Shown piece after piece: positions 4,422-38,825 of a DNA stretch of 44,873 bases (positions within the stretch are counted from its first letter, which is position 1; each line of letters begins with the position of its first letter). The stretch is taken from the IMG/VR virus record IMGVR_UViG_3300015245_000016, positions 1 to 44,873 of that record; one strand, 5' to 3'. Origin of the DNA: a virus. The notes below the pieces were generated by a model. The model did not search any database and was not told where the DNA came from. It was given only the letters and a program-made list of their open reading frames with translations. The translations under genes and the position numbers were made by a program.

Positions 4422-4450
4422 TTGACACTGCATTTATTTCATGAGATTCT
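4422..4450 (+). promoter_or_regulatory. Rightward promoter, predicted leaderless start
   Basis: TTGACA at 4422-4427 begins exactly 35 bases before ATG 4457. The -10 position holds a poor match (GATTCT, 4445-4450). No ribosome site precedes the ATG, so a transcript starting at the ATG itself is predicted. Confidence 0.5.
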
Positions 4451-4456
4451 TTTGAT

Positions 4457-4627
4457 ATGGAAAAGATAAAGAAAATCCGATTTCATATTGAGATGAATGA
4501 GCGCGAGGCAACTATTCTTGAAGAACTCAGGGCTCACTATTCCGGATCGTTCGGCGTAAAGGTCTCCAAGGCTGAGGCGGTAAAACTGGCAATCAAAACC
4601 ACACATAGAGAAGAGGGGTTAGGATAA
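4457..4627 (+). CDS. Small regulator-like protein, probably leaderless mRNA
   Basis: 56 aa, starting MEKIKKIRFHIEMNEREATI. An N-terminal beta strand followed by two helices (EREATILEELRAHY, then SKAEAVKLAIKTTHR) is the layout of small ribbon-helix-helix DNA-binding proteins. It is the first gene of the rightward operon and lies beside divergent promoters, a typical place for a regulator. No Shine-Dalgarno sequence is present, and an in-frame stop at 4442 rules out an upstream start. The regulator call is inference. Confidence 0.6.
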   Translation: MEKIKKIRFHIEMNEREATILEELRAHYSGSFGVKVSKAEAVKLAIKTTHREEGLG

Positions 4628-4728
4628 TGGGGCCTAAAGTCAAAGAAGGGCTGCTGATTCTGCTTATTACCTGGTCGGCAGCCATACTCAACGTTGGAAT
4701 CTGCGTAGCGCTATTCGGAGGGAAGTGA
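4627..4728 (+). CDS. Single-span membrane microprotein
   Basis: 33 aa, starting MGPKVKEGLLILLITWSAAI. One hydrophobic helix of about 20 residues. It starts in a TAATG overlap with the previous stop and ends in a TGATG overlap with the next gene. Function unknown. Confidence 0.5.
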   Translation: MGPKVKEGLLILLITWSAAILNVGICVALFGGK

Positions 4729-4919
4729 TGGATTATTTCGTAAAGGCAACACTTTGTTCGTGGGTAGTATCCATAGCTTCGACGGTGACATCCTTTGTAT
4801 TTTCAGGCGGTAAAGGAGAAAAGGTTCCTGGGGTGGTAGCTCTATTCATTATTTCGGCACTATTCGTCTCTGTTGGATTATCAGTTTCTTGCTTGATATA
4901 CGAAATCTGGAGGTTCTAA
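4728..4919 (+). CDS. Two-span small membrane protein
   Basis: 63 aa, starting MDYFVKATLCSWVVSIASTV. Two hydrophobic segments are separated by a short charged loop (GGKGEKVPG), predicting a helical hairpin. ATG 4728 is preferred to the GTG one codon upstream; GGAGGGAAG lies upstream. Holin-like topology, but far from the lysis genes, so no role is assigned. Confidence 0.6.
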   Translation: MDYFVKATLCSWVVSIASTVTSFVFSGGKGEKVPGVVALFIISALFVSVGLSVSCLIYEIWRF

Positions 4920-5258
4920 ATGGGGATCGATGGGATCATGGAGACGATTATTTATCTAGCTCTATTTGCGTCATCATTCGCCCTCCTGGGCTTCGTGATC
5001 GGCGAGATGCATGGCAGACCTAAACTGCGTAGGGATAAGCGTACAGGACGATTCACGACCAAAAGCGGCTTGCCTCGTAAAGCCGTGAAGGAGCTTGAGG
5101 ATATTGCCACGTATCAGAGTGCTTTATGGAATAGGCTTGCGAATAAGGAAATTCCTTTGAGCATGAGACAACCATTCAGGGTTCCATTTCATACAAAAGA
5201 CCAGCCTATGCCAGATACCAACTACGATCCTCTATTCATGGAGGTAGATAATGACTAA
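4920..5258 (+). CDS. Membrane-anchored basic protein
   Basis: 112 aa. Residues 7-28 form a transmembrane helix (METIIYLALFASSFALLGFV), followed by a basic segment (RPKLRRDKRTGRF) and a soluble tail. GGAGG lies 6 bases before the ATG. The topology suggests one membrane anchor with a cytoplasmic domain. Unknown function. Confidence 0.65.
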   Translation: MGIDGIMETIIYLALFASSFALLGFVIGEMHGRPKLRRDKRTGRFTTKSGLPRKAVKELEDIATYQSALWNRLANKEIPLSMRQPFRVPFHTKDQPMPDTNYDPLFMEVDND

Positions 5259-5457
5259 ACCTCTTATTTATAAAGGTTTTGGGGAATGGCGCGTAGTAAA
5301 TAGCCTCGGTAGCCAAGGTGAATTTCCTACATGGAGCAGCGCGTTACTTCATGCGCTTCGATTAGCTGAAGGGAAAGCATATTACAAAGCTGATTATGCG
5401 TTGGGTGTAGGAACTTGGCAAGAAGGAATGCCTCGTAGCGGCGGAATATTCAAGTAA
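5251..5457 (+). CDS. Small hypothetical protein
   Basis: 68 aa, starting MTKPLIYKGFGEWRVVNSLG. It overlaps the previous gene by eight bases and has GGAGGTAGATA upstream. Last gene before the control region that precedes the terminase genes. No motif recognised. Confidence 0.6.
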   Translation: MTKPLIYKGFGEWRVVNSLGSQGEFPTWSSALLHALRLAEGKAYYKADYALGVGTWQEGMPRSGGIFK

Positions 5458-5576
5458 TCCTTTTTCTTCAACCTGCATCCAAACACAGCATGTGGATATT
5501 TTCCGCACATCACCACCAGCGCATCGAGCAATTGAGCTAGATACAACTAAATAAATTGTTTGCTTATTAGCCATGC

Positions 5577-5600
5577 CTAAATTAGGTGTGGCTAATTTAG
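5577..5600. promoter_or_regulatory. Paired CTAA-N-TTAG palindromes, candidate operators
   Basis: CTAAATTAG (5577-5585) and CTAATTTAG (5592-5600) are both near-perfect 9-bp palindromes with centres 15 bp apart. A third, looser copy (CTAA, 4 bases, TTAG) follows at about 5606-5617. They lie about 190 bp upstream of the terminase promoter. The protein that might bind is unknown. Confidence 0.4.
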
Positions 5601-5785
5601 TTGAGGCTAAAAGATTAGGTAAAAACCTATTCCATTTGCTACCCTTATGCCGATACCAAAGCCCGCTATCTTTTGTCGTTGCGTTTGCTTCTAATCTTAA
5701 AAAAGAGATATATATCCCGTCGAACAGACGGGAAGCCTCCACGGCGAGTGGGCCCGAGCGGCGAGCGAGTTGTTGCTGTTGCATT

Positions 5786-5794
5786 TGATATACT
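5786..5794 (+). promoter_or_regulatory. Late promoter for terminase operon, extended -10
   Basis: TGATATACT contains the extended -10 arrangement TG-N-TATACT (hexamer 5789-5794). No good -35 is seen. The predicted start is at or one base before ATG 5802, so the small terminase mRNA would be leaderless. Confidence 0.55.
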
Positions 5795-5801
5795 CAATCA
5801 C

Positions 5802-6194
5802 ATGGGAAAGACAGGCCGACCTTCGAGCTACTCAGTTGAGATCGCAGATCAAATCTGTCGAGAACTCGCTGATGGTAAAGGACTTGCTCAAATCTGCACA
5901 AACCCAGATTATCCAGATCATGTAACTGTCAGAAACTGGATATTGAAAGATACGGACGGCTTCTTCAATAAATATGCGCGCGCGAAAGACTTCGGAATGG
6001 ATTATCAGGCCGAAATGATGATGCGAACAATTGATGATGAAGAAGATGTGCTTAGAGCGCGACTTAAAGTAGATACGCTCAAATGGTACATCAGCAAGAT
6101 TGCTCCAAAGAAGTATGGAGACAAGCAAACGATCGAGCATACTGGTGAAGTAGCATTGGCTGATCGCATCTCGAAAGCTCGCAATCGCAAATGA
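5802..6194 (+). CDS. terS: Terminase small subunit
   Basis: 130 aa. Starts MGKTGRPSSYSVEIADQICR, the GRPS-x-Y-S/T opening of a common phage TerS family, with a helix-turn-helix (LAQICTNPDYPDHVTVRNWI, about residues 28-48). It ends with the R-x-K-x-D-x-x-K-W-x-x-x-K-x-x-P-K-K-Y-G-D-K block typical of this family. It recognises phage DNA for packaging and works with the large subunit, whose gene overlaps it by four bases. The start has no ribosome site but sits just after a -10 box. A longer in-frame start exists but falls in the control region. Confidence 0.88.
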   Translation: MGKTGRPSSYSVEIADQICRELADGKGLAQICTNPDYPDHVTVRNWILKDTDGFFNKYARAKDFGMDYQAEMMMRTIDDEEDVLRARLKVDTLKWYISKIAPKKYGDKQTIEHTGEVALADRISKARNRK

Positions 6195-7735
6195 CTCATG
6201 AAGAAGCGCTTATCGACGATATCGCTTCATTCTCTGCCAATCCGTTAGGATTTTGTCGTTACGCGTTTCCTTGGCTTGAAGATGGTGAACTCTCTTCCTC
6301 GAATGGCAGTCGCGCCTGGCAAGCTAATGTTCTCAACACAATCGGCAAACATCTATCAGGCCCGAAACGTTTCACTCCATTACAGATAGGAGTTGCTTCA
6401 GGTCATGGTATTGGCAAGAGCGCTCTCATTGGTCAAGTGATCAATTGGGCGATGTCAACATGTGAGGATTGCCGCGTTGTCCTAACTGCGAACACAGACA
6501 CGCAGCTTCGTACAAAGACCTGGCCTGAAGTGTCGAAATGGTTCAGGCTCGCAATCAACTCACATTGGTGGAACATCACTGCAACGTCTATCTCTGTGAA
6601 AGAGAAGGCGCATGAGCGATTGTGGCGCGCCGACGCGATACCATGGAGCGAGAACAACCCAGAAGCATTCGCTGGTCTTCACAATCAAGGTAAGCGCATT
6701 GTTGTGATCTACGATGAGGCATCAGCGATTGCAGACAAGATATGGGAAGTCACTGAAGGCGCATTGACCGATGAAGGAACAGAGATCATCTGGCTTGCAT
6801 TCGGTAACCCTACACGCAACACTGGGCGCTTCCGTGAGTGCTTCGGACGATATAAGCATCGTTGGATTACGCATCAGATTGATTCTAGAACAGTTGAAGG
6901 AACGCAGAAAGATCTACTCGATAAGTGGATTGCTGATTATGGTGAAGACTCTGACTTCTGTCGTGTCCGCATCCGTGGTGAGTTCCCACGTGCTGGTTCG
7001 ACACAGTTCATATCAGGTGAGGTTGTGCGTGAAGCCCGAATGCGGCAGGTAGATGAGTCGGAGTATCGACGTGAGTGGAAGATCCTATCTGTTGATGTCG
7101 CTCGGTTTGGTGACGACATGACTGTGATCGGACTGCGTCAAGGGAAGAAGTTCACCATTCTTGAGAAGATGCGCGGGCTTGACACGGTTCAGGTTGGCTA
7201 TCGTGTCTGCGCATATATGAGAGAGCATTCTCCGCGCCTTACGGTAATCGATGGTGACGGTGTTGGTGGTGGTGTCGTCGACAATGTGAAGCATCAGATG
7301 CAGGACTGGATGAAGAAGAATGTCCCAGCGCAAGTAGAAGAGTTTCATGGAGGTAACTCGCCAGGCGATGCGTTCGCTTACTTCAACCGTAGAGCTGAGG
7401 TATGGGGCAAGATGCGGGAATGGCTGAAGACTGGTGATATCCCTGACGATCCAGAGATTGATTCTGATCTGTCTGCTCCAGAGTACTTCTTCAGCTCAAA
7501 GAATCAGATTCAGCTCGAGCGCAAGGACGATATGAAGTCGCGTGGTCTATCGAGTCCTGACATAGCTGATACATTGGCAATGACGTTTAGTGCAGATCCA
7601 TGGCCTCAGACGCGAGATGAACGCGTTGCAGAGGAGCAGGCACAAATACAGGATCCGATGGCATTACACTTCGCGCGTCTAGCTGAGACGGAGAAGCGAA
7701 AGAAAAGAAGTGAACCTTTACCGTATTGGAGTTAG
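6191..7735 (+). CDS. terL: Terminase large subunit
   Basis: 514 aa, normal length. ATPase domain: Walker A GHGIGKS at 71-77 and Walker B VVIYDEAS at 171-178. Nuclease domain (RNase H-like): SVDVARFGDD at 300-309 and VIDGDGVGGG at 352-361 supply the acidic metal ligands. It pumps and cuts DNA into the prohead through the portal. The ATG overlaps the terS stop. Together with a circular map and no cos site visible, a headful mechanism is the simplest reading, but that is inference. Confidence 0.96.
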   Translation: MTHEEALIDDIASFSANPLGFCRYAFPWLEDGELSSSNGSRAWQANVLNTIGKHLSGPKRFTPLQIGVASGHGIGKSALIGQVINWAMSTCEDCRVVLTANTDTQLRTKTWPEVSKWFRLAINSHWWNITATSISVKEKAHERLWRADAIPWSENNPEAFAGLHNQGKRIVVIYDEASAIADKIWEVTEGALTDEGTEIIWLAFGNPTRNTGRFRECFGRYKHRWITHQIDSRTVEGTQKDLLDKWIADYGEDSDFCRVRIRGEFPRAGSTQFISGEVVREARMRQVDESEYRREWKILSVDVARFGDDMTVIGLRQGKKFTILEKMRGLDTVQVGYRVCAYMREHSPRLTVIDGDGVGGGVVDNVKHQMQDWMKKNVPAQVEEFHGGNSPGDAFAYFNRRAEVWGKMREWLKTGDIPDDPEIDSDLSAPEYFFSSKNQIQLERKDDMKSRGLSSPDIADTLAMTFSADPWPQTRDERVAEEQAQIQDPMALHFARLAETEKRKKRSEPLPYWS

Positions 7736-7744
7736 AATCGGAAT

Positions 7745-8026
7745 ATGGACATCAAGCGTAAAGTTCGGGAATGGCTTAGCTTGGATGATCTTGCTTCGTA
7801 TTGCAAGAGTACCGACTCGCAACTACGATCTATGCTTACCGAACAGCAACAGATCGCAGCCCACTTGCTTGAATTACTGGCTACTTGCCAACGCCTTGAG
7901 CAGAAAATGTCATTGAATCACCTCGATAAGCCTATTGAACGTGTATCATCTCAATCATATGACTGGGATGCGGTACAGGTCATGGCGCTTCAAGACATGC
8001 AGAAGAATCCTCCGAAGGAGAACTAA
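7745..8026 (+). CDS. Small helical structural-region protein
   Basis: 93 aa, starting MDIKRKVREWLSLDDLASYC. The middle (EQQQIAAHLLELLATCQRLEQK) looks like a coiled coil. It lies between terminase and portal genes in the head operon and is probably minor or regulatory. Only a weak ribosome site (CGGAAT) is present. Function unknown. Confidence 0.65.
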   Translation: MDIKRKVREWLSLDDLASYCKSTDSQLRSMLTEQQQIAAHLLELLATCQRLEQKMSLNHLDKPIERVSSQSYDWDAVQVMALQDMQKNPPKEN

Positions 8027-8386
8027 ATGAAGGCTTTAGAGCATAATGGCAAGTCTTACACGAATGCTGATTCATGGCGCACAGCGAAGAAGACTCAGGC
8101 TCCGATGGCAAAGGCTGTTGGTGGCGGCGTAGAGAACCCTGAAGTTGAGGGTGAAGAGTCTCCTGAGGCTGTTATAGCTGCACATGGTCCAGCTCATCAG
8201 GTTACGATAAACCACGATCACGAGATGGGGATGCATTCGGTTCATTCCGTGCATGGAGACGGTCACGAGCATCATTCTGAGAAGGCATCGGCTGAGGAAG
8301 CTCATGAGCACGCTAAGAACCTTTCAGTCGACGATGCTAACTCGGATGACATGGAAGGCGAGTCCGAGGATGGTTGGGACGAGTAA
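8027..8386 (+). CDS. Acidic, histidine-rich protein of the head operon
   Basis: 119 aa. Residues 60-95 are very rich in His (HDHEMGMHSVHSVHGDGHEH, then HHSE) and the C-terminus is strongly acidic (DDANSDDMEGESEDGWDE). It is likely disordered and able to bind metal. AAGGAG precedes the ATG, which directly follows the previous stop. Position beside the portal hints at a head-assembly or DNA-mimic role; unproven. Confidence 0.7.
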   Translation: MKALEHNGKSYTNADSWRTAKKTQAPMAKAVGGGVENPEVEGEESPEAVIAAHGPAHQVTINHDHEMGMHSVHSVHGDGHEHHSEKASAEEAHEHAKNLSVDDANSDDMEGESEDGWDE

Positions 8387-8715
8387 TGCCATTCAAGAGT
8401 AAAGCTCAACAACGGTGGGGAAACTCATCGACAGGGCAGAAAGCTCTTGGCGGTAAAGAGAACGTATCTGAATGGAATAACGCTACTGATTTCAAACACT
8501 TACCGGAGAAAGCTATGGCGACGAAGGAAGTCAACCTGGGTAAGAAACATGAATCGTTCAAAGTAAAAGAGGGCAGTTTACATAAAATGCTTGGCATCTC
8601 CGAGGATAAGAAGATAGGTGATGAGCGGTTGCATAAGGCGCTGCACTCGCAGAACCCAACCATTCGACGTAAGGCAGCTTCAGGCATCGGCCTATCGCAT
8701 ATGAAAAAGGGATAA
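8386..8715 (+). CDS. Conserved-type phage head-operon protein
   Basis: 109 aa. The start MPFKSKAQQRWGNSS is typical of small phage proteins that begin MPFKSKAQ and lie near terminase and portal genes. Basic throughout, with a C-terminal helix (HSQNPTIRRKAASGIGLSHM). ATG 8386 overlaps the previous stop (TAATG). Function not established. Confidence 0.75.
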   Translation: MPFKSKAQQRWGNSSTGQKALGGKENVSEWNNATDFKHLPEKAMATKEVNLGKKHESFKVKEGSLHKMLGISEDKKIGDERLHKALHSQNPTIRRKAASGIGLSHMKKG

Positions 8716-11244
8716 ATGGCAGAGTTAGGTAAGCCTTCTACAACGAATCCCGAGAATGAAGAATCACCACAGAGTCGCCTGACTCCGTCTAAGTTTCCCG
8801 AAGGATATGTCCCCGGGAAACATGCTGCTTGGTATTGTTCCGATCAGCCTAACTATTTCCCTGAAGATCTAGGCGATTACGCCAATCATATCGAACAGAT
8901 GATCCAGAATGTGAACCGCTGTGATGCTGCGGCTCGTATCTGGGAAGTATTGCAAGCATGGGAGAGCAGGCTGTTTCGCCGTGGTTACCACTTCCTCAAC
9001 GCTGGTTGGAAGGGTTGGGGGATGTTTGGTGGTTCTGGCGGTACGTCAGGTGCAAGCATCATGCAGACACAGAACGCGATGAAGTTGTTTGCTTGCAATG
9101 TTTACGGAGCTAGGCACGATAAGATCTCCGCCTTGTTGAGCCGACAGGTTCCAGGCAGCGAGATTGTTCCCAATGAAGATGATGACCCAATGGATCAGGC
9201 TGCTGCCGAGGCGTCTGAGGATTATGTCAAGATCTTCGATAACCAAGCTAATCTCAAGCAGGCCATTACGCAGGCAGCTAGTTACTTCTATACGGATGCA
9301 CGCGTTCTCTTCCTAACGTATACGGTTGCCGATCAAGCACGCTGGGGCACAGAGATTGCTACACGCGAACAAGAGACATATGGTGTTCCTGAGTCTGAAG
9401 GTATATCACCCGAGACAGAGATGGATCCGCAAGGACCTAGTGGCGATGAGCAGCCCGTACGGCGCGAGACAGTCTTTGTAGGCGGCAAGCTTGAGTCTAA
9501 AGTTCCGCTTATGGCCGATGAAGAGCATGAGATGGGATGGGTGCGGTATCAGCATGAAGTTGGTGTAAATACCCTCAAGGCAAAGTATCCTTGGATTCGT
9601 TCTCAGATCGCATCACAAGGCAATGTTGGCGGTATGGATCAGATTGATCGGCTTGCTCGTATCAATGTACGTCTGGCAGTGCAGGCGTCATCTTCGTCCG
9701 GCGAAGCATATAAGAACGATGCTACTGAAACAGTTACCTTCTTCCGCCCGAGCGAATATGAAGGTATTGAGGATGAAGGAGTTAGAGAGACATTCTTTGA
9801 GGCATTCCCGGATGGCATGGAAGTGTGGCATGCAGGTGGATCACTTGCTTTTGTACGTAACTGCCGCATCAATGAGCATGTAAAAATCATTCATCCTTAT
9901 CCAGGTGATGGACAGAATCGCCGTGCTATTGGAACAAATTATCTGCCACTCCAGAAAGTTCTGAACGCGAACATCTCACTACTTGATCGTTACTTCCGTG
10001 CTGCTGTTCCGCGCCGGTATGGGCTTGAGCCATATATCGATACGCAGGCCATCAATGCGCAATCGAATGACCCAGGTAAGATCACTGCGGTAACCGGCCT
10101 TGAGGGTAAAGGACTTACGATTGACCAGATCACCGGAGTCGAACGTGTACCTCAACCGAATGGAGCAATGTTTGAGTTCATTCAGTGGCTGATCTCTGGT
10201 GCCCCAGAAGTTATGGATGGTGGATCACCTGCTGTCTTCGGTGCCAATGATGGCGAAGAGGGTACGTTTGGTGAAGCAAGGCTCAACCGAGACCAGGCAT
10301 TGCAGGTCTATTCGACTCCATGGGCTTCATTGTGCGAGGCGACATCATGTATTCATCAGCAGGCGATTGAATCGGCTGCCAAGAACCGGATTACGGACAT
10401 ATCGGCATCCTTGCCAGGCCAGCAGAAACTCAAGATTGAACTGAGCAAGTTGCAAGGATCTGTATTGGTCCATCCGGCATCGCTTGAGATTCCAAAGACG
10501 ATTGCAGAACAAGAACAGCAGATGGCGCAGATGTTGGAGCAGTCAGCGAATGTTGGCCTATATAACCAGATTATGAATGATCCATCGAATCTGGCGGTCT
10601 TCTCGAAGTTCCCATCATTATCAGATATGAATGTCCCTGGCGCAGATCAGGTTGAGGCGCAGCAGGGTGAGTTTGAGATTCTGATGAAGTCGGCTCCAGT
10701 AGAGAATCCGAAGATAGCTCAGATACAAACTCAGATATCAATGGCTGCTACCGATCCAGAGGCGCAGACACCTGAAGGGATACAAGCGGTTCAGCAGCTT
10801 CAACAGGCAGCGCAAAGCATGCCTCCATTGGTATCGACAGTGCCAGTAGCACAGGACAATAGCGAGAACCATGCTATCCATGCAGCGATTACGCTTGGAA
10901 TGCTAACATCGCCAACTGGCCGTAAACTCAAGTATGGAGATGATGATCAGAAGGCTATCTGGCAGAATCTAAAACTTCACTGGTCAGAGCATATTGCGAT
11001 CCTGAAGCAGCTTACGCCTCCTCCGCAGGTTCAGATGAAGGCGAATGTCAGCATCGATCCTACGAAGCTTCCACCGGCGGCACAGTCAAAGGCATTCCAG
11101 GCGCTCGGATTAGAGGTATCGCCGCAAGAGCTTATGCCGGACGAACAGACACATGAGATCGTGAAAGAGCAGGAGGGTGTCGATCCTTATACAGGAGTAC
11201 CAACGAAGACGAAGGTATCTCTGGTCGGAAAGCCGTTACAGTGA
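8716..11244 (+). CDS. Portal protein
   Basis: 842 aa, large and in the size class of podoviral (P22-like) portals, directly downstream of terminase. Features include the early RAAARIWEVLQAWESRLF-like helix region (residues 72-95), a long central wing/crown region and a Gln-rich helical C-terminus (about 600-760), as in portals with a barrel. It forms the dodecameric DNA channel at one vertex and docks TerL. Identification rests on position, size and general layout. Confidence 0.82.
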   Translation: MAELGKPSTTNPENEESPQSRLTPSKFPEGYVPGKHAAWYCSDQPNYFPEDLGDYANHIEQMIQNVNRCDAAARIWEVLQAWESRLFRRGYHFLNAGWKGWGMFGGSGGTSGASIMQTQNAMKLFACNVYGARHDKISALLSRQVPGSEIVPNEDDDPMDQAAAEASEDYVKIFDNQANLKQAITQAASYFYTDARVLFLTYTVADQARWGTEIATREQETYGVPESEGISPETEMDPQGPSGDEQPVRRETVFVGGKLESKVPLMADEEHEMGWVRYQHEVGVNTLKAKYPWIRSQIASQGNVGGMDQIDRLARINVRLAVQASSSSGEAYKNDATETVTFFRPSEYEGIEDEGVRETFFEAFPDGMEVWHAGGSLAFVRNCRINEHVKIIHPYPGDGQNRRAIGTNYLPLQKVLNANISLLDRYFRAAVPRRYGLEPYIDTQAINAQSNDPGKITAVTGLEGKGLTIDQITGVERVPQPNGAMFEFIQWLISGAPEVMDGGSPAVFGANDGEEGTFGEARLNRDQALQVYSTPWASLCEATSCIHQQAIESAAKNRITDISASLPGQQKLKIELSKLQGSVLVHPASLEIPKTIAEQEQQMAQMLEQSANVGLYNQIMNDPSNLAVFSKFPSLSDMNVPGADQVEAQQGEFEILMKSAPVENPKIAQIQTQISMAATDPEAQTPEGIQAVQQLQQAAQSMPPLVSTVPVAQDNSENHAIHAAITLGMLTSPTGRKLKYGDDDQKAIWQNLKLHWSEHIAILKQLTPPPQVQMKANVSIDPTKLPPAAQSKAFQALGLEVSPQELMPDEQTHEIVKEQEGVDPYTGVPTKTKVSLVGKPLQ

Positions 11245-11459
11245 GATTGAGAATCTATCCCGACGTACACGAACCTGGGATATTTTGTACAGATGAAGGA
11301 ACGAATGCAACAGAAAAGAGATTCAAGAAAGTTTACATCGTAAGGCGTACAATCAAAAGCGGTTACGATGGTAAGGCGAACAATAGCAATGAACCAAAGT
11401 ATTGGCTCGAATGTAATGGAAGACTGATCACCCTTAGGGGTATCGGAATCATCTTTTAG
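11241..11459 (+). CDS. Small hypothetical protein, GTG start
   Basis: 72 aa, starting with GTG in a GTGA overlap with the portal stop. Beta-rich, basic (KRFKKVYIVRRTIKSGYDGK, then YWLECNGRLITLRGIGIIF). No ribosome site is obvious, so translation is probably coupled to the portal. Function unknown. Confidence 0.5.
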   Translation: MRLRIYPDVHEPGIFCTDEGTNATEKRFKKVYIVRRTIKSGYDGKANNSNEPKYWLECNGRLITLRGIGIIF

Positions 11460-11473
11460 GAGACAAGAGAGAC

Positions 11474-11740: not shown

Positions 11741-11752
11741 GGGAGAAGAGAC

Positions 11753-13078: not shown

Positions 13079-13087
13079 AGGCAGTTG

Positions 13088-13211: not shown

Positions 13212-13233
13212 ACTCAATTTACAAGGGTGATTT

Positions 13234-14589
13234 ATGGCACTAGCAACCGAAACAGCAGTTCAGGCTATCGAGCTTGAATCCTTCATCGAAGAGATCGCGG
13301 ATCTCCAGGCGCACTTTGACAAGCTTCAGACACGCCTTGAAAAAGGTGGCAAGAAAGTTCAGTGCTCGAATCAGACCAATCGTGGCGGCGTAGGACGTGC
13401 ACCTTTCTGGGTACCGGTCCGTGTACAGGGTGGAGCAGGCATTCAACAGTTTGCTTCTGACACTGCGACCTCTGCCGCAGCGTGGCCCCGCGGTAGTGGT
13501 TCACAATTCCAGTCGTTCGCGGCATCTCCAGTACGGTTTATCAATGTCTGCGAGATTTCAAATCTTGCACAGGAAGCTACTGACGGTAAAGAGCGTGGCT
13601 TAGTCAAGTTCTCCCGTGAGGAGATGGATAAATCACTTCTGGCTTTCGACAATGGTGTAGAAGGTCTTATCAATCGTGATGGATCTGGCACAATTGATCA
13701 GATTCCGACAACTGCGACTGTAAATAATGGCACCGGCCCCGCTGGACCGCAACTCTCTTCAATTGTTGGCCTGAATACGGCTGCCAGTTTCTCCGATCAA
13801 CAGGTTTGCCAAGTATTCCCTGCTGTCGGCGGTACTGCCCGCACTTCTCCGGCTACCTTTACTATCTCTTATGTCGATCCAGTTTCTCAGACTATTTATA
13901 GTGCTGGAGCGCTTCCGACCGGAACGACCACGGGCGACATTATTGTTGTTCTTGGCGCAACCGGTGCTGCTGGCAGCTCGGTCTATGGCAAGGATTATTG
14001 GATCAACAACGGAAACGTCGGAACGATTGCCGGAATCAACAAGGCATTGTTCCCCGGTCGCTTCTCTACTCCCACCATCAACTTCGCTGGCGCTGGAAGC
14101 ATTGTCAATTCCACAGCACAGCGTATCGAGTCAATTCGCCTCCGCGCTCTGGGTGATGAGTATGACGAGAACAAGGATGGCTTCTGGTACACCAACCCCA
14201 TGCAGGGTGTTGCGCTGTCGATGAACTACTACAATCCTGGCTATACCCGCCTGGATGAAGGTGGTGACCGCGAAGTACCGGATACGGCCAAGATGCATAT
14301 GCAGAAGACTTGGGGCGGACGTGAGGTTGTCTATTCGTCCACTGCCGAGCCTTCCCGGATGGATCTGATCGTTCCGTCTACTTGGTACTTTGGCGAGTTG
14401 TTCCCAACACGTCTCCATGAGTGGACACCGGGTAATCCGATTGCTGCTGTTCCAACGAATGATGGTACTGGGGCAACAACCTACTTCGACTCTCAGATGT
14501 TTGGATACGAACGCGGTTTCAACCTGATCTGTCAGAATCCCAAGGAGCAGTTCTATCTACAGGGACTTCCGATTCCTCAGGATGCATAA
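13234..14589 (+). CDS. Major capsid protein
   Basis: 451 aa. It follows the scaffold and has its own promoter and a good ribosome site (AAGGGTG). Expected HK97-fold coat: a helical N-terminus (residues 1-37), a long Gly/Thr/Ala-rich insertion (about 155-265, TTATVNNGTGPAGPQLSSIV and following), and a conserved-looking core with ARG-type loops near the C-terminus (YNPGYTRLDEGGDREVPDTA). The insertion could be a surface domain. Assignment is from position, size and abundance signals rather than a diagnostic motif. Confidence 0.8.
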   Translation: MALATETAVQAIELESFIEEIADLQAHFDKLQTRLEKGGKKVQCSNQTNRGGVGRAPFWVPVRVQGGAGIQQFASDTATSAAAWPRGSGSQFQSFAASPVRFINVCEISNLAQEATDGKERGLVKFSREEMDKSLLAFDNGVEGLINRDGSGTIDQIPTTATVNNGTGPAGPQLSSIVGLNTAASFSDQQVCQVFPAVGGTARTSPATFTISYVDPVSQTIYSAGALPTGTTTGDIIVVLGATGAAGSSVYGKDYWINNGNVGTIAGINKALFPGRFSTPTINFAGAGSIVNSTAQRIESIRLRALGDEYDENKDGFWYTNPMQGVALSMNYYNPGYTRLDEGGDREVPDTAKMHMQKTWGGREVVYSSTAEPSRMDLIVPSTWYFGELFPTRLHEWTPGNPIAAVPTNDGTGATTYFDSQMFGYERGFNLICQNPKEQFYLQGLPIPQDA

Positions 14590-14614
14590 TGATAGGTTCG
14601 ATTAGTCTGTAAAG

Positions 14615-24901: not shown

Positions 24902-25244
24902 AGTTCCTCCCCGTTTTTGTTGTTCTTAAGTCTTTCTCTCTAATGCAGTTCTAGACCGTAGACGTAAAAGGTTCTGGGGTAAACCAGCTCAAAGAGTATT
25001 CTCTAAAAAGCTGATTCCAGAACTTTTACTTTCACGTGCATTATCTGAGCCGTGAGAGCAATCTAAACTGAGAACAGGGGCCGTTAGCTTCCTACGAAGG
25101 AATCCAGTATCCGGTTACGAGGCCTGTGGTCGTTAGATTGACCGTTTTCCCCGCGTAGCACTTCGGCATCAATGCCTTATAGCCACGTTTCTATTGACCA
25201 AGTATTCGGGTCAAGAAGCTAAAATATAGAGGGGAATCTCCCAT

Positions 25245-25260
25245 ACATTTTATATTCGCA
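25245..25260. repeat. 16-bp direct repeat inside the RNA candidate, copy 1
   Basis: ACATTTTATATTCGCA, identical to 25346-25361, 101 bp apart. Both copies end at the 3' side just before a C-rich arm (ACTCC or GCCCCTCC), suggesting a repeated structural motif. Confidence 0.85.
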
Positions 25261-25345
25261 ACTCCAGAGTAGACCTTAGCGGATAAATTTGCAATACTGA
25301 TGTGGAGGGGACAGTTTAAGAAACTGATATCCAGCCTGCTCCGGC

Positions 25346-25361
25346 ACATTTTATATTCGCA
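25346..25361. repeat. 16-bp direct repeat inside the RNA candidate, copy 2
   Basis: Second copy of ACATTTTATATTCGCA. Here it lies unpaired on the 3' side of the GTGGAGGGG/CCCCTCCAC helix. Confidence 0.85.
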
Positions 25362-25404
25362 GCCCCTCCACTGAGAGCCGCCATAACTGGTGGCTTTCGT
25401 GCTT

Positions 25405-25410
25405 TATACT
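25405..25410 (+). promoter_or_regulatory. -10 box of second late block, leaderless start predicted
   Basis: TATACT occupies exactly -12 to -7 relative to ATG 25417. No -35 match and no ribosome site. The hexamer equals the one before the small terminase gene, so both may be one class of late promoter. Confidence 0.55.
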
Positions 25411-25416
25411 GTGAAT

Positions 25417-25821
25417 ATGATCCGAGACATGCAGGACAGCGATCACGAAGAAATAAAAGCACTTCATAAACGCCAAGGTTTCCAGTACAATCTACCCAAG
25501 CTCGATTCTCCTCTCATCCTCGTATCCAAGGTGAGAGAAATCGATGGGCGTGTCGTGGCAGCGGAGTTTTTACGCATCACGGCAGAGACGTTCCTTCTAG
25601 TAGAAGGCAGCCCGGTTGAAAAAGGTCGCGCAATCGAGGAATTGCAGCCTGAAGTTGACCGGGAAGCTAAACAGAAGGGGCTTGAAGATTATGTCTGCGT
25701 CGTCCCTCCTGAAATTGAAGAAAGCTTCGAACCGGCACTTCGGAAGATGGGTTGGAATCCAACTCGTGACTGGAAGATGTGGTACAGGAGCTTAGATGAG
25801 ATCAGCGGTCAACCAGGCTAA
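25417..25821 (+). CDS. GNAT-like acetyltransferase-fold phage protein
   Basis: 134 aa. MIRDMQDSDHEEIKALHKRQ (1-20) is the usual start of GNAT proteins (I-R-x-M-x-x-x-D). VVAAEFLRITAETFLLVEG (44-62) matches strand 4-5, and GWNPTRDWKMWYRSL forms the C-terminal strand. The acetyl-CoA P-loop (Q/R-x-x-G-x-G/A) is not clear, so it may be non-catalytic. Such genes are common among phage structural genes. ATG 25417 is chosen from the -10 spacing; an in-frame GTG at 25411 is possible. Confidence 0.72.
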   Translation: MIRDMQDSDHEEIKALHKRQGFQYNLPKLDSPLILVSKVREIDGRVVAAEFLRITAETFLLVEGSPVEKGRAIEELQPEVDREAKQKGLEDYVCVVPPEIEESFEPALRKMGWNPTRDWKMWYRSLDEISGQPG

Positions 25822-28751: not shown

Positions 28752-28759
28752 GAGAAAAG

Positions 28760-29440: not shown

Positions 29441-29449
29441 GGGGAAGAT

Positions 29450-32508: not shown

Positions 32509-32524
32509 ACCTGAAAGGATTTAT

Positions 32525-32845
32525 ATGAATATAGATTTTATTAAAAATATATCTGATGGGGTTATATCAATTCCTTTTGTAACTAATGAGATATTCACAA
32601 AGGTATTTGTGACTCTCAAGATAAATTCTCCTGATACTTCATCTACGGTTACGATAGATATATCTACTCCGTATAATGTCTGCTACTACACTCCTAATGT
32701 CTTTTCATTGAATGGGAATCCAAATTCTACTGTAGTTTTTGGTTTTTCTGCTGGTCTATTTTCACTCTATAGGGTTCCTGTCTCTATAACTCTTACACCT
32801 ACTGGAACTTCTGGTTCGTATGAAATATTCGTTCATGTTGAGTAA
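32525..32845 (+). CDS. Small beta-rich tail-region protein
   Basis: 106 aa, starting MNIDFIKNISDGVISIPFVT. GAAAGGATTTAT precedes the ATG. All-beta composition (Ser, Thr, Ile, Val). It lies between the tailspike and fibre genes and could be a fibre accessory or chaperone. Family not recognised. Confidence 0.6.
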   Translation: MNIDFIKNISDGVISIPFVTNEIFTKVFVTLKINSPDTSSTVTIDISTPYNVCYYTPNVFSLNGNPNSTVVFGFSAGLFSLYRVPVSITLTPTGTSGSYEIFVHVE

Positions 32846-32857
32846 CTTAGGAGAAAT

Positions 32858-34444: not shown

Positions 34445-34510
34445 TTCACTTTGTCTTTGATCTGCCTCCTGAACGATGAATAAGGGAGAAACCAATATAC
34501 GGAGCTGAGA

Positions 34511-34882
34511 ATGTCCCCACTGCCCGAGTACTTCCCGAATGAAGGAGTCGAGTCTCTTACGATCCTTACGAAAGGTACCGGCGGCGGTAAATCCGTCATA
34601 GCTCGTATAGAAGTTCTTGAAGATAGAGATAGGGAACAGAGGATAGGATATGCAGAATATAGACTACAAACCCGTGAATCCATCAGCAGGATTGAGAATG
34701 AGATGGATAATCGCATGAAAACATTACAGTTAGACATTGATCAAGAGATGAAGGAGATCCGCAAAGACAATGCGGAGATCGAGAATGAGCGCCATGCTGA
34801 GATGAAGAGATATATGCAGGCCATCATTGGGATGCTCTTTATAGCTCTTGGCACAGTTCTCTGGAAGCTAATCGAGAAATAA
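34511..34882 (+). CDS. Coiled-coil protein with C-terminal membrane anchor (XhlA-like)
   Basis: 123 aa. Residues 30-98 are a charged coiled coil (ISRIENEMDNRMKTLQLDID and onward), and 101-119 (QAIIGMLFIALGTVLWKLI) a transmembrane helix. This order matches XhlA-type proteins that help holins or tether lysis complexes. It begins the lysis region. GGAGCTGAGA precedes the ATG. Confidence 0.65.
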   Translation: MSPLPEYFPNEGVESLTILTKGTGGGKSVIARIEVLEDRDREQRIGYAEYRLQTRESISRIENEMDNRMKTLQLDIDQEMKEIRKDNAEIENERHAEMKRYMQAIIGMLFIALGTVLWKLIEK

Positions 34883-34900
34883 GGCCCCGTCACCGAGGCC
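34883..34900 (-). terminator. Leftward terminator after the membrane-protein genes
   Basis: On the minus strand GGCC-U-CG-GUGA-CG-G-GGCC pairs with one U-G wobble and is followed by TTATTTCTC. On the plus strand the same bases give a C-A mismatch, so it serves leftward transcripts better. Confidence 0.55.
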
Positions 34901-34907
34901 CTACTAG

Positions 34908-35033
34908 TTATTTAGGGTCTACTGGCTTAGGTGGGTTGATCGGTGGAGGAGAGGGCGGTTTCGGCCCCACTGCTGGACTATAACCGGGAGGAACGATAGG
35001 CGGTTTTGGCCCTACCGAAGCTGCTTCAATCAC
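34908..35033 (-). CDS. Proline-rich 41-aa reading frame
   Basis: GTG 35033 overlaps the stop of the upstream membrane gene. The frame reads VIEAASVGPKPPIVPPGYSP and continues with PKPPSPPPINPPKPVDPK. Proline content this high is unlikely by chance in this base composition and recalls proline-rich periplasmic linkers of spanins. It may be a coupled gene or a frameshifted tail of the membrane protein. Confidence 0.4.
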   Translation of the reverse strand: MIEAASVGPKPPIVPPGYSPAVGPKPPSPPPINPPKPVDPK

Positions 35034-35466
35034 TGACAACATAATGCCCCTTTCTGCGATATAAGATACCGCATACATAGATCATGCACGATAGATAGAG
35101 AGGACGCAAAACATCTGCGAATCTCACGGCTATATGCCAATTGTGCGTAAGGAACATGCTGATGTGGATTGTCTCTGGAATGATATAGATCATCATGGCC
35201 TGACCGATGAAGCTCTTTACTATCAATCTCTTGCATTCGAGATATGCCAATAGGAATAGAAAGAACCCCACAATCTCAAAGCTATAGTAGAGATAGAAAT
35301 AGGTTATCGGCCCCATTGGCGTCAAGAGAATGTAGTCGCAGAAGACCCGAGCGATCAGCATCGTCATGAGCCAGCGCATCATAAGCGAAGTCTCCCGCCA
35401 GATCATGAGCCAGAGAAGAAAAGTGTGAACTAGAATGGTTGACCAAGAAAAGAAGGAATCGATCAT
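35026..35466 (-). CDS. Multi-span membrane protein, leftward in the lysis region
   Basis: 146 aa with about four or five hydrophobic helices (WSTILVHTFLLWLMIW, WLMTMLIARVFCDYILL, YSFEIVGFFLFLLAYL, AMMIYIIPETIHISMFL and PLYLSCMIYVCGILY). There is no ribosome site. TATACT (35479-35474) lies seven bases before ATG 35466, predicting a leaderless transcript. It diverges from the lysozyme gene 21 bp away. Possible roles are antiholin, lysis control or exclusion; unproven. Confidence 0.68.
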   Translation of the reverse strand: MIDSFFSWSTILVHTFLLWLMIWRETSLMMRWLMTMLIARVFCDYILLTPMGPITYFYLYYSFEIVGFFLFLLAYLECKRLIVKSFIGQAMMIYIIPETIHISMFLTHNWHIAVRFADVLRPLYLSCMIYVCGILYRRKGHYVVSD

Positions 35467-35473
35467 ACCATCA

Positions 35474-35481
35474 AGTATAAT
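35474..35481. promoter_or_regulatory. Overlapping divergent -10 boxes
   Basis: AGTATAAT holds TATAAT rightward (35476-35481, exactly -12 to -7 from the lysozyme ATG 35488) and TATACT leftward (35479-35474, seven bases from ATG 35466). Four of six bases are shared, so polymerase could serve only one direction at a time. Neither gene has a ribosome site. Confidence 0.55.
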
Positions 35482-35487
35482 GGCCCC

Positions 35488-35925
35488 ATGACGCGTATAG
35501 CATCATCTCGTGGCCGCGATCTGATCGAGAGCGTAGAAGGCTTGCGGATGAAAGCGTACCAAGATGGTAATGGTGTCTGGACCCTCGCTTACGGCCATAC
35601 TGCCAATGTCCACCCCGGCGATACCTGCACACAGGAACAGGCCGATGCCTATCTCGCCGGTGACCTCCATCAGGCTGAATGGGCTGTCAATACCTTCGTC
35701 AAGATGCCGATCAACCAGAACCAGTTCGATGCCCTATGTTCCTTTGTTTACAACATAGGATCTGGCAATTTCAGCAAATCAACGATGTTGAAGCTGTTAA
35801 ACGAAGGGAAGTACGAAGAAGCCGCACAGCAGTTCTTTGTGTGGGTCAAAGTGGCTGGTAAGTTTAGCCAAGGACTCATGAACCGTCGGATCAAGGAAGA
35901 AACATTGTTCATGGAGGCAGTATGA
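35488..35925 (+). CDS. Endolysin, GH24 lysozyme
   Basis: 145 aa. The catalytic layout of T4/P22-type lysozymes is present: Glu17 in SVEG, Asp26 in AYQDGNG and Thr32 in WTLAYGHT, with the expected E-9-D-6-T spacing. NQNQFDALCSFVYNIGSGNF (about 75-95) matches the C-lobe signature. It cleaves peptidoglycan at the end of infection. No signal-anchor sequence, so release needs a holin, matching the small membrane genes that follow. Confidence 0.93.
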   Translation: MTRIASSRGRDLIESVEGLRMKAYQDGNGVWTLAYGHTANVHPGDTCTQEQADAYLAGDLHQAEWAVNTFVKMPINQNQFDALCSFVYNIGSGNFSKSTMLKLLNEGKYEEAAQQFFVWVKVAGKFSQGLMNRRIKEETLFMEAV

Positions 35926-36020
35926 TCACAGCGTTTTTCGTAAAGGCTTATAACTCAGTCGTTTCCTTCTTCTCATCGGTAAAGGCTTGGTTCAAGAAGA
36001 TGTTTGTGAGACAGGCATGA
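35922..36020 (+). CDS. Amphipathic 32-aa peptide in lysis cassette
   Basis: MITAFFVKAYNSVVSFFSSV then KAWFKKMFVRQA. GGAGGCAGT precedes the ATG, and both ends overlap neighbours by ATGA. Phe, Val and Lys spacing makes an amphipathic, membrane-active helix. It may be a small holin, holin modulator or toxic peptide. Inference only. Confidence 0.55.
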   Translation: MITAFFVKAYNSVVSFFSSVKAWFKKMFVRQA

Positions 36021-36205
36021 ACGATCAAGCGGGAACGATAACTCAGATTATTTCTGTGGTGTTGATCGTCTTGGGACTAGGGGCCATAGCCTCGGCAGAT
36101 CACTTCAACATGCGCGATCTGGCTAATGCTGGAACCGTTGTCGTCGGCGCAGGTGTCGGTTTGCTTACCGGTAAAGCGTTGAGAAATAAGGATCCTCAAG
36201 TATGA
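36017..36205 (+). CDS. Putative holin (two-span)
   Basis: 62 aa, starting MNDQAGTITQIISVVLIVLG. Two hydrophobic helices (TQIISVVLIVLGLGAIASA and ANAGTVVVGAGVGLLTGKAL) are joined by a short loop, with a basic C-terminus: the small class II holin layout. It lies directly downstream of the lysozyme gene. ATG 36017 is chosen for the ATGA overlap. It would form membrane lesions that release the lysozyme. Confidence 0.62.
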   Translation: MNDQAGTITQIISVVLIVLGLGAIASADHFNMRDLANAGTVVVGAGVGLLTGKALRNKDPQV

Positions 36206-36906
36206 GTGCCTTCCTGAAGTTGCATGAGAGATTGATTCTTATCGTCCTGGGCCTGCTTGTTGCAGGCTTTCTTGTTTGGAAGTTCCTTGATCATTCCGCA
36301 GCCGTCGCCGATAAGAAGTCGCTTCAGGCCGATGCGGTACTCCAGCAGCAAACAGTGATAAATAACAATCTGGCTGCGCAGGTCAAGAGCCAGGGAGATA
36401 CTCTGACGCAGCTGGTAGTGCAAGTCTCCCAGGAGAATGCGGCGCTCCTACAGGCCATTCAGGTGAGATCTACGGCCACCGTGGTGCAGCAAAAGGTCGA
36501 TAAAAATCTTCCTTTACCAGAACTAGCGACTCGTTGGGAGAATCTAGCATCACTACAGCCCACAGACATCACCGCAACGACGTCAGGATTGGTTGTGAGC
36601 GACGCAGGAAGCCGGATGACAGTCCAGGCCCTTGAAAACCTTCCTACGCTCACCCAGAACCTTGCTGACACCCAGGCTATAGTCCAAAACAAGGATTCTC
36701 AGATATCTAGCATGACGGAGTTCCAGGGAACTCTCCAGACGCAAGTCAAAGGGCTCAACCTACAAATCACTGACGCGGACAAGGCATGTAAGCTTCAGGT
36801 ATCGGCAGTAAAGTCCGATGCCCGTAAATCGAAGATGAAGTGGTTCCTCACCGGTATAGGTATTGGTATCGGCGGCGGGGTCGCCATTATGGCGAAGCTA
36901 CTTTAA
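36202..36906 (+). CDS. Membrane-anchored coiled-coil protein (spanin-like)
   Basis: 234 aa. N-terminal transmembrane helix (LILIVLGLLVAGFLVWKFL, 11-29), a long Gln/Val-rich coiled coil (about 35-190), and a C-terminal Gly-rich hydrophobic helix (WFLTGIGIGIGGGVAIMAKL). Rz-type inner spanins have the first two parts. Unimolecular spanins instead carry a lipobox, absent here. The position after holin and lysozyme supports an envelope-disruption role. Confidence 0.58.
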   Translation: MSAFLKLHERLILIVLGLLVAGFLVWKFLDHSAAVADKKSLQADAVLQQQTVINNNLAAQVKSQGDTLTQLVVQVSQENAALLQAIQVRSTATVVQQKVDKNLPLPELATRWENLASLQPTDITATTSGLVVSDAGSRMTVQALENLPTLTQNLADTQAIVQNKDSQISSMTEFQGTLQTQVKGLNLQITDADKACKLQVSAVKSDARKSKMKWFLTGIGIGIGGGVAIMAKLL

Positions 36907-37070
36907 TACGGGAAGAAATACTCTAGGGCCTTCCAGCCATAAAATAACCCCGTCAGAACTGCGATAGGACTATACAGTATAACTACACCGATGAAAGCCC
37001 ACCATAGCATCCGCATGGTTCGCATAGCATCTTCTTTTACTCTTGCTTCAATAAGCTCGTCGAATGACAT
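36903..37070 (-). CDS. Single-span membrane protein
   Basis: 55 aa, starting MSFDELIEARVKEDAMRTMR with a hydrophobic helix (MLWWAFIGVVILYSPIAVLT). GGAGGTACCACA precedes ATG 37070. Its stop overlaps the stop of the convergent spanin-like gene by four bases. Last gene of the leftward operon. Confidence 0.58.
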   Translation of the reverse strand: MSFDELIEARVKEDAMRTMRMLWWAFIGVVILYSPIAVLTGLFYGWKALEYFFPY

Positions 37071-37237
37071 TGTGGTACCTCCAATGCAGATAAGATCTCG
37101 TCAGCGATTGCTAAAAGATCAAATATTCCATCCAATCCAACTCCTTTATAATCTTCATCGCTAAAGTCTCCATAACAGCAAACTTTCTGTTTCATGGCCT
37201 CGACCAAGATTATTTGAGCGATCTCATCTCGTGTCAT
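37037..37237 (-). CDS. Small acidic hypothetical protein
   Basis: 66 aa, starting MTRDEIAQIILVEAMKQKVC. Acidic helical protein. AGAGGTTACTCG precedes the ATG, and its 3' end overlaps the next gene's ribosome site and start. Function unknown. Confidence 0.6.
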   Translation of the reverse strand: MTRDEIAQIILVEAMKQKVCCYGDFSDEDYKGVGLDGIFDLLAIADEILSALEVPQCHSTSLLKQE

Positions 37238-37431
37238 CGAGTAACCTCTTGCTCTATTATGCGCTTGGCAGCCTCAACCCAATGAGCTTCATTAAGGTCA
37301 TTGTTGTACTTCCGCGAGTCCGAAAGCGCAATTCCTTCTACGCCATCGACCAGGTGTAGGCCGCTAAACGACTGAACGAACGCCTTCGGGTATTTTGTGA
37401 GAACGATACGTTTTGCAGCTCTGATATCCAC
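37234..37431 (-). CDS. Small hypothetical protein, GTG start
   Basis: 65 aa. The GTG start directly follows the previous TAA. It starts MDIRAAKRIVLTKYPKAFVQ and includes SDSRKYNNDLNEAHWVEAAK, a small alpha/beta layout like other phage proteins with an A-W-x-x-A-A ending. Function unknown. Confidence 0.6.
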   Translation of the reverse strand: MDIRAAKRIVLTKYPKAFVQSFSGLHLVDGVEGIALSDSRKYNNDLNEAHWVEAAKRIIEQEVTR

Positions 37432-37668
37432 TTAGTTCACTCTCTTTTCTTCGCATCTAACGTAGCGTACCGGTTTGTAATGGATGTGAGGGAACTCTTT
37501 ATGCCATCGGTCACAACTCGCCTGGCAAGTTTCTAGGCTTACGAATGGCATATCTTCCACATTGTCCACAGTAAAAGTTTTTATGCCATTATTCGCTTCG
37601 GCAAGCCAGAACTCTTGATATACCTGCGGATTGAGATTCAAATGCTGTATGCCCATCTCTACTGTCAT
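37432..37668 (-). CDS. Small hypothetical protein
   Basis: 78 aa, starting MTVEMGIQHLNLNPQVYQEF. The end (FPHIHYKPVRYVRCEEKRVN) resembles the C-terminus of the 60-aa gene at 44657 (TEYKPVKYYLASK), and both carry a central segment in which a Cys-containing helix precedes W-K or W-H. They may be distant paralogues. GAGGACTATTCT is the ribosome site. Confidence 0.6.
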   Translation of the reverse strand: MTVEMGIQHLNLNPQVYQEFWLAEANNGIKTFTVDNVEDMPFVSLETCQASCDRWHKEFPHIHYKPVRYVRCEEKRVN

Positions 37669-37868
37669 AGAATAGTCCTCGATCCTGTCAATTCAACGTA
37701 AAACTCTTCAACCAACTTCGTCCACGGAACAAACACTTCATACTCACGATTGAATACAAAGTATTGATCGCACCGCGTGCAATGCTGCTTCCAGCTACCG
37801 TTCTCGAACGTCTGCACGGTGCGGAGTTTGTGGCGTAGATGGCTGCACAGGAAATCTTTGAAGCTCAT
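37665..37868 (-). CDS. Small zinc-finger-like protein
   Basis: 67 aa, starting MSFKDFLCSHLRHKLRTVQT. The pattern C-x2-H-x2-H plus HCTRCDQYF supplies Cys/His ligands for one zinc site. ATG 37868 forms an ATGA overlap with the upstream gene; a longer start at 37892 is less likely. Unknown role. Confidence 0.6.
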   Translation of the reverse strand: MSFKDFLCSHLRHKLRTVQTFENGSWKQHCTRCDQYFVFNREYEVFVPWTKLVEEFYVELTGSRTIL

Positions 37869-38026
37869 AAATGAGACCCCAATTCCTTGCATGCATTACG
37901 CCAGAAATCTATGCTCGTCTGCATTATTTTAATCTCTCGAAGGTGGTCCTCATATAGGACATATTGTCCATCTTGTACTGGCTCCATGCATGCATCATGC
38001 CCATAGCTATCAAATCTTGCGATCAC
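37865..38026 (-). CDS. Small hypothetical protein, GTG start
   Basis: 53 aa, read from GTG 38026 in a GTGA overlap. It runs VIARFDSYGHDACMEPVQDG, then a charged helical end (YEDHLREIKIMQTSIDFWRN). The helix resembles coiled-coil tails of small phage proteins. GGAGGATAAGGC precedes the GTG. Confidence 0.55.
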   Translation of the reverse strand: MIARFDSYGHDACMEPVQDGQYVLYEDHLREIKIMQTSIDFWRNACKELGSHL

Positions 38027-38247
38027 GCCTTATCCTCCAACTCGATAACTGAATTGCACTGGGGGCAATAATCATGCCCATCATTCAAGGCCAGCTCTCC
38101 ACATTCGCAATGTGGTAGGCAATCTTCGCATCGGATCTCGGTTTGTGTCCCATGCCGATATGTATAAATAGGGCCCTGCGTCGTATCGCATACGTCACAA
38201 ATCATGTTTTCCTGGTAGATGGACGAATATATCTCTGCAGTAGCCAT
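38023..38247 (-). CDS. Double zinc-ribbon protein
   Basis: 74 aa with eight Cys in C-x2-C pairs: ICDVCD, RCEDCLPHCECGE and YCPQCNS. This can hold two zinc ions. Such proteins may bind nucleic acid or host factors. ATG 38247 overlaps the previous stop (TAATG). No specific function assigned. Confidence 0.68.
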   Translation of the reverse strand: MATAEIYSSIYQENMICDVCDTTQGPIYTYRHGTQTEIRCEDCLPHCECGELALNDGHDYCPQCNSVIELEDKA

Positions 38248-38540
38248 TAGATTAGACCCATCTTTCTCGCGTTCGGCAGAGTCTGTATCTCGTTGAAGTG
38301 CGCGATCATCTCGAATGAATCATGGTAATCATCGTATCCATTCATGCAATCCAGCATCAGATCCATGGCCCGGGAAGGTACCACCATACCGAGATTGACA
38401 GCATAATCGACTACCGCATCGATTCGTGTGGCCGCGGCGTCTAGGCAGCGTTTCTGGCCGTCCAGGTTGCGGTTCTTTGCGTGGCCTCCAGCGATCTTTA
38501 TGTCGGCTGAGGCAGAGTCTAATGTCATTGTGATTTCCAT
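38247..38540 (-). CDS. First gene of second leftward operon
   Basis: 97 aa, starting MEITMTLDSASADIKIAGGH. A helical protein (RCLDAAATRIDAVVDYAVNL). CTGGAGACACGCAA precedes ATG 38540, about 15 bases after the predicted transcription start. As the first early gene it may act against the host. Family not recognised. Confidence 0.62.
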   Translation of the reverse strand: MEITMTLDSASADIKIAGGHAKNRNLDGQKRCLDAAATRIDAVVDYAVNLGMVVPSRAMDLMLDCMNGYDDYHDSFEMIAHFNEIQTLPNARKMGLI

Positions 38541-38561
38541 TTGCGTGTCTCCAGTTCCTCA

Positions 38562-38590
38562 ACAATAGAATAGATGGAATAATAAGTCAA
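38562..38590 (-). promoter_or_regulatory. Leftward early promoter of second operon
   Basis: On the minus strand TTGACT (38590-38585), 17-base spacer, TATTGT (38567-38562). The predicted start near 38555 leaves a 15-base leader with GGAG before ATG 38540. Near-consensus, probably strong. Confidence 0.78.
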
Positions 38591-38598
38591 GTATTTAT

Positions 38599-38627
38599 TT
38601 GACAACCAAAAGGTTTCATGCCAATAT
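38599..38627 (+). promoter_or_regulatory. Rightward early promoter, predicted leaderless start
   Basis: TTGACA at 38599-38604 begins exactly 35 bases before ATG 38634. The -10 position has a weak CAATAT (38622-38627). There is no ribosome site. The layout mirrors the promoter at 4422. Confidence 0.5.
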
Positions 38628-38633
38628 CTATTC

Positions 38634-38825
38634 ATGGCTAAAAAGTACATGACTGCAGAAGAGGTTCTTGCGTATCTGGCCGAACACTATACAGCGAAAG
38701 ATCTGTCTATTGTGGCCGATATATCGACTCAACATGCTCACAGCATTATCAAGAAAGGCGTTTTCCCATCCGCCCGGGTTTTGGATATGGTTGGAATCAA
38801 TAGAATTTACGAGGTGCAGAAATGA
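38634..38825 (+). CDS. Small helix-turn-helix protein, probable regulator
   Basis: 63 aa. KDLSIVADISTQHAHSIIKK (about 22-41) reads as a helix-turn-helix, followed by VFPSARVLDMVGI. It is the first gene of the replication operon, next to divergent promoters, the position of Cro/CI-type regulators. The start lacks a ribosome site and is predicted leaderless. It may bind the promoter region itself. Its target is unknown. Confidence 0.68.
   Translation: MAKKYMTAEEVLAYLAEHYTAKDLSIVADISTQHAHSIIKKGVFPSARVLDMVGINRIYEVQK

Follow-up and report, generated by a model that had tools for sequence, protein, structure and literature searches.

Leaderless genes have been described in many phyla, in which a TANNNT motif lies approximately 12 nt upstream of the start codon of operon-proximal genes (PMC3160421, Zheng 2011); operon-distal genes are usually led by a Shine-Dalgarno (SD) sequence (PMC3160421; PMC12340547). 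Among phages, most middle and late mRNAs of phiYS40 are without leaders (review PMC3594737), and the middle and late promoters of P23-45 belong to the extended -10 class (PMC7403470). Here, we analyzed the IMG/VR virus record IMGVR_UViG_3300015245_000016 (44,873 bases, read at full length and hereafter called the window) and examined six genes at the heads of its transcription units, at which a promoter element runs up to the ATG and an SD is missing. We consider it likely that most of these six genes are leaderless, with promoters joined to the start codon. Leaderless initiation is a known if infrequent mode of translation and has already been described in phages; less usual here are its predicted use by the first genes of early as well as late units and the replacement of first genes with the ATG as the boundary.

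The Thermus phages phiYS40 and P23-45, with leaderless or extended -10 middle and late units, are the closest described parallel to the predicted arrangement of the window. Unlike in these phages, the apparently early units of the window are also headed by predicted leaderless genes, and leadered units are set back to back with units predicted to be leaderless. In lambda, the cI gene is expressed from PRM as a leaderless mRNA beside a divergent promoter. The initial annotation named this gene as the precedent; the comparison holds for a leaderless gene beside a divergent promoter, but the Thermus phages are closer, and cI is a single repressor gene, whereas the six genes comprise a possible helix-turn-helix (HTH) gene together with packaging and lysis genes. 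The placement of the -10 element is the same as in the TA-led genes of Zheng 2011 and the -10-adjacent open reading frames (ORFs) of Deinococcus-Thermus in Zhong 2025. Those surveys concern cellular genes, whereas here a phage lineage swaps its first genes at the ATG.

Promoter elements at six start codons

In the initial annotation, TTGACA began exactly 35 nt upstream of two ATGs (4457 and 38634), and TATACT or TATAAT ended 6-7 nt upstream of four others (5802, 25417, 35488 and, on the minus strand, 35466), with no SD at any of the six genes. Both TTGACA hexamers were found (4422-4427 and 38599-38604), the four coordinates of the TATACT and TATAAT group were confirmed, and no useful SD pairing was detected upstream of any of the six genes. 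The start codon is ATG in all six. The elements and genes are as follows.

4422-4456, plus strand: early-type promoter; TTGACA at 4422-4427, a 17-nt spacer ending in TGA (4442-4444), GATTCT at 4445-4450, 6 nt, ATG
4457-4627, plus strand: 56-amino-acid gene, predicted leaderless, without SD, heading a rightward unit
5786-5801, plus strand: late-type promoter core TGA-TATACT; TATACT at 5789-5794, 7 nt to the ATG, no recognisable -35
5802-6194, plus strand: terminase small subunit (TerS; PF20901, phrog_1482), predicted leaderless
25373-25398, plus strand: terminator-like hairpin, immediately 5' of the -10 of 25417
25405-25416, plus strand: -10 element; TATACT at 25405-25410, 6 nt to the ATG
25417-25821, plus strand: 134-amino-acid gene, predicted leaderless; acetyltransferase-like by eye, no Pfam or PHROG match
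35474-35481, both strands: overlapping back-to-back -10 elements, AGTATAAT; TATAAT on the plus strand at 35476-35481, TATACT on the minus strand at 35479-35474
35488-35925, plus strand: phage lysozyme (PF00959), predicted leaderless; TATAAT 6 nt before the ATG
35026-35466, minus strand: 146-amino-acid hydrophobic protein, judged by eye to be a probable membrane protein; predicted leaderless, TATACT 7 nt before the ATG
38599-38633, plus strand: early-type promoter; TTGACA at 38599-38604, a 17-nt spacer ending in TGC, CAATAT at 38622-38627, 6 nt, ATG
38634-38825, plus strand: 63-amino-acid protein, predicted leaderless, heading the unit with the Erf-like, DnaD-like and DnaB genes

When the A of the ATG is taken as +1, the spacings of the elements equal the usual promoter-to-start distance. 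The sites appear to fall into two types. The early type (4457 and 38634) combines a consensus -35 and a 17-nt spacer with an extended -10 of weak hexamer; GATTCT and CAATAT match at 3 of 6 bases, and both are preceded by TGN. The late type (5802, 35488, 35466 on the minus strand, and 25417) has a strong TATAMT without a recognisable -35. TGN is present at 5802 and at the lysozyme gene of a related record (L083) and absent at 25417, 35488 and 35466. Because their near-consensus -10 lacks a -35, the late-type promoters are suggested to be of the extended -10 class or activator-dependent. The early or late timing of the units is judged from gene content only. A common operator at 4457 and 38634 was sought by eye, and only TTTCATG was in register, which is insufficient; the folding of the 5' ends of the six predicted mRNAs was not unusual.

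The starts of 5802, 25417, 35488, 35466 and 38634 align with those of their homologues (for 5802, the homologues in L005, L007 and L011), and the start at 4457 was placed by eye, at the position ahead of a gene common to L003. Other starts were considered and rejected: GTG 5748 for TerS, since homologues begin at the 5802 Met; GTG 25390 or 25399 for 25417, since the L108 homologue begins at the equivalent Met; and ATG 35548 for the lysozyme, since homologues align from residue 1. The possibility that 35466 on the minus strand is a spurious antisense ORF was also rejected, since L083 encodes a homologue that is 72% identical. An SD-weighted gene caller shifted the starts of three of the six genes and failed to call two others among them. 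Strong SD sites inside operons had been claimed as well, and strong sites are found at 54 of 66 called genes, a count that is partly circular because the caller itself rewards SD.

The window contains 21 copies of TATAMT, counting both strands. When distances to the first ATG of all window ORFs of at least 60 amino acids were scored, the motif was found four times at a distance of 6-7 nt compared with approximately 0.06 expected, although two of the four matches are not independent because 35466 and 35488 use one element; the remaining distances within 0-59 nt gave one match in all, with approximately 0.03 expected per distance. With a sigma-70 score composed of -35, spacer, TGN and -10 parts, 14 sites in the whole window reached at least 20, including the 4457 and 38634 promoters at a distance of 6. 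After the window was pooled with related records, a hexamer set picked after inspection (TATAAT, TATACT, TACAAT and TAGAAT) gave 15 matches at 6-7 nt compared with 1.13 expected. The same test on distant controls, 66 TerL relatives (L016-L081), gave 6 matches compared with 4.03 expected.

Conservation in related records

Looking for the same spacing in related phages had been proposed as a check. The spacing is kept at the 5802 slot, 35488, 35466 and 38634, but not at 25417 and 4457. Upstream of the 38634 homologues in L084 and L104, we found TTGCAA, a 17-nt spacer ending in TGG, CAGTAT or CATGAT, 6 nt and ATG. Compared with the window, the 35 nt from the start of the -35 to the ATG, the spacer of 17, the TGN and the 6-nt gap are all kept, whereas the letters of the -35, largely those of the spacer, and those of the -10 differ. 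The 38634 product is possibly a Cro/C1-type HTH protein, as suggested by a weak match of the L104 homologue only. In L104, this slot holds a tandem pair of related small genes (L104:169-548), each of which ends in YEVQK codons that form a GAGGT SD for the next gene.

In the window, the lysozyme and membrane-protein genes share one common 8-bp promoter core. In L083, approximately 465 bp of other DNA (L083:9536-10000) lies between the divergent genes. The DNA upstream of the L083 lysozyme is unrelated to that of the window, yet reads TGATATACT-TCAATC-ATG, again with a gap of 6 nt, and the homologue of 35466 is preceded by TATAAT-TGGTAG-ATG, also with 6 nt.

At the head of the late operon, L003 and L004 carry a GIY-YIG gene (PF01541; L003:6330-7085) with terS behind it; upstream of the GIY-YIG gene lie a terminator hairpin and then TAGAAT-N6-ATG. 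In cousins with approximately 60% TerL identity, the late-operon head has TACAAT-N6 (L005, L008 and L011), TACAAT-N7 (L007) or TAGAAT-N7 (L012), and no strong SD was found at any of these five heads. The first proteins of L005, L008, L011 and L012 belong to PF20901, PF03592 or PF18932, so four Pfam families in all occur at late-operon heads. Compared in pairs, L005, L008 and L011 are 75-95% identical over the 60 nt directly upstream of the ATG, and identity is 40-60% over the first 20 nt after the ATG and 15-35% over the next 20. This collapse of identity places the boundary of the conserved module at the start codon, which would be expected of a promoter and start codon that form one unit. 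Within the conserved 60 nt is a dyad, GTCCAGACCTGGAC (GTCCAGACCTAGAC in L011), roughly at the -35 or activator position. In the more distant L013, TTGACA-N17-TAGAGT-N6-ATG and TTGCAA-N17-TACAAT-N7-ATG were found.

L005:1234-1247, L008:4155-4168 and L011:1587-1600: dyad upstream of the late-operon -10, candidate regulator site

Similar copies of the dyad in L008 also lie near 2783 and near 3035 on the minus strand.

SD-led leftward genes

The claim that operon-first genes are leaderless probably holds for most of the six genes above but does not extend to 38540, 4355 and 24901 (all on the minus strand), which are operon-first and SD-led, apparently with short leaders. The SD of 24901 is GGGGAGG, and the other two are arranged as follows.

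38247-38590, minus strand: gene 38540, leadered; TTGACT-N17-TATTGT (38590-38562), 21 nt from the -10 to the ATG, GGAG SD
4203-4409, minus strand: gene 4355, leadered; TTGACT-N17-CATAGT (4409-4381), 25 nt from the -10 to the ATG, AAGGAG SD

Two gene pairs, 4355/4457 and 38540/38634, therefore combine an SD-led leftward promoter with a back-to-back rightward one that is predicted to be leaderless. The presence of SD-led leftward genes beside the six leaderless candidates indicates that the phage uses both modes.

Putative mechanism and alternative explanations

Overall, leaderless initiation is well supported by the geometry, the missing SD, the enrichment and the spacing conserved in diverged relatives. 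According to the mechanism that we propose, sigma-70-type promoters would start transcription at the A of the ATG, or no more than 1-2 nt away from it, and yield a leaderless mRNA. Ribosomes would enter at the 5'-terminal AUG, and the downstream genes of the unit would use their SD sites. Since the promoter extends to the start codon, the two could act together as one element, with one first gene replaced by another downstream of it. The mode of initiation might be linked to the start of the transcript as a possible consequence, and a leaderless start would silence the first genes on read-through RNA, which has already been proposed as a general advantage of leaderless genes (PMC3160421). The full form of this idea, that early and late promoters fused to the start codon are portable cassettes, that first genes recombine precisely at the ATG, and that a leaderless first gene is translated only from transcripts begun at its own promoter, which silences read-through from the neighbouring unit, is a speculation to which we give little credence.

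Several observations weigh against leaderless initiation at the six genes. The 25417 homologue in L108 (65% identical) keeps the Met but lacks the -10; the 4457 slot of L003 holds a different, SD-led gene (GGGG before the start); no homologue of 4457 itself was found; and TerS of the relatives L029 and L102 has a strong SD. The late-type promoters, lacking a -35, have sigma-70 scores of 16-17, at which chance matches occur, and that scale may not fit the sigma-factor preferences of the host. The chance tests were designed after the sites had been seen, and the P value of the pool is not a strict probability because the pooled records are kin. The transcript 5' ends at the six ATGs are themselves predictions from sequence alone.

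Alternatively, the six genes might have ordinary 5' leaders from promoters farther upstream, with SD-less initiation at an A/U-rich start and the TATA-like motif as a translation element or a coincidence. SD-less initiation is known in general, and the late sites lack a -35. However, in the lineage the motif clusters 6-7 nt before the ATG, with no such clustering at adjacent distances, the 38634 promoter and its homologues keep a -35, the 17-nt spacer and TGN along with the motif, and the terminator-like hairpins that adjoin the -10 at 25417, in L003 and at the L083 minus-strand gene would cut upstream transcripts; we regard this explanation as very improbable. It is also doubtful that true leaderlessness is confined to the 38634 promoter and the late-operon head, with the matches at 25417, 4457 and 35466/35488 due in part to a shared AT element and chance. 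In its favor, the AGTATAAT element serves both strands, the 25417 promoter is not conserved in L108 and 4457 is without a homologue; against it, the lysozyme gene and the 35466 homologue in L083 each have a separate -10 at 6 nt.

Leaderless initiation at most of the six genes, which we prefer, is compatible with a third explanation, in which leaderless first genes are simply a habit of the host (for example, Acidobacteria, delta-proteobacteria or Actinobacteria) and have no phage-specific meaning. We find the odds of this evenly balanced: TANNNT approximately 12 nt before the start marks leaderless genes in many phyla (PMC3160421), whereas the leftward first genes of the window use SD leaders. 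A host search through TerL relatives in genome contigs gave matches of 44-66% identity spread across several groups and identified no host, and DnaB and TerL matches in phages indicated no single host.

If the 5' ends are confirmed, leaderless initiation at the heads of early and late units would extend beyond the Thermus phages. A sequence rule (a -10 ending 6-7 nt before an ATG without SD) could then guide the search for promoters and authentic starts in genomes of uncultivated phages, in which SD-weighted gene calling goes wrong at such starts. The lineage would also provide a natural setting in which to ask whether a leaderless start shields a unit from read-through.

Other features of the window

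The window encodes an Sf6-type TerS, TerL, a PF00959 lysozyme, an Erf-like annealing protein, a DnaD-like loader and a DnaB helicase. Klebsiella prophages and epsilon15-like phages gave the highest-ranking phage matches for TerL (approximately 50%). A DNA search of the phage collection with the window gave no match, nor did tblastn of 13234-14589. The sole match of an Rfam scan was a tRNA.

4124-4197, minus strand: tRNA-Lys (UUU), a single gene inside the leftward unit

At 7745, TAGAAT-N6-ATG lies exactly at the terL stop codon and is kept in L002-L004, with an SD-like GGAG rather far upstream; this is possibly an internal leaderless start or a chance occurrence. The 515-nt stretch at 24902-25416 holds no called gene and lies between divergent genes. 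It has no Rfam match, forms long hairpins, folds better than 100 of 100 shuffles (z -3.3) and could be a novel structured RNA. Within it, a 28-nt direct repeat occurs at 25238 and 25339, around CATTTTATATTCGCA.

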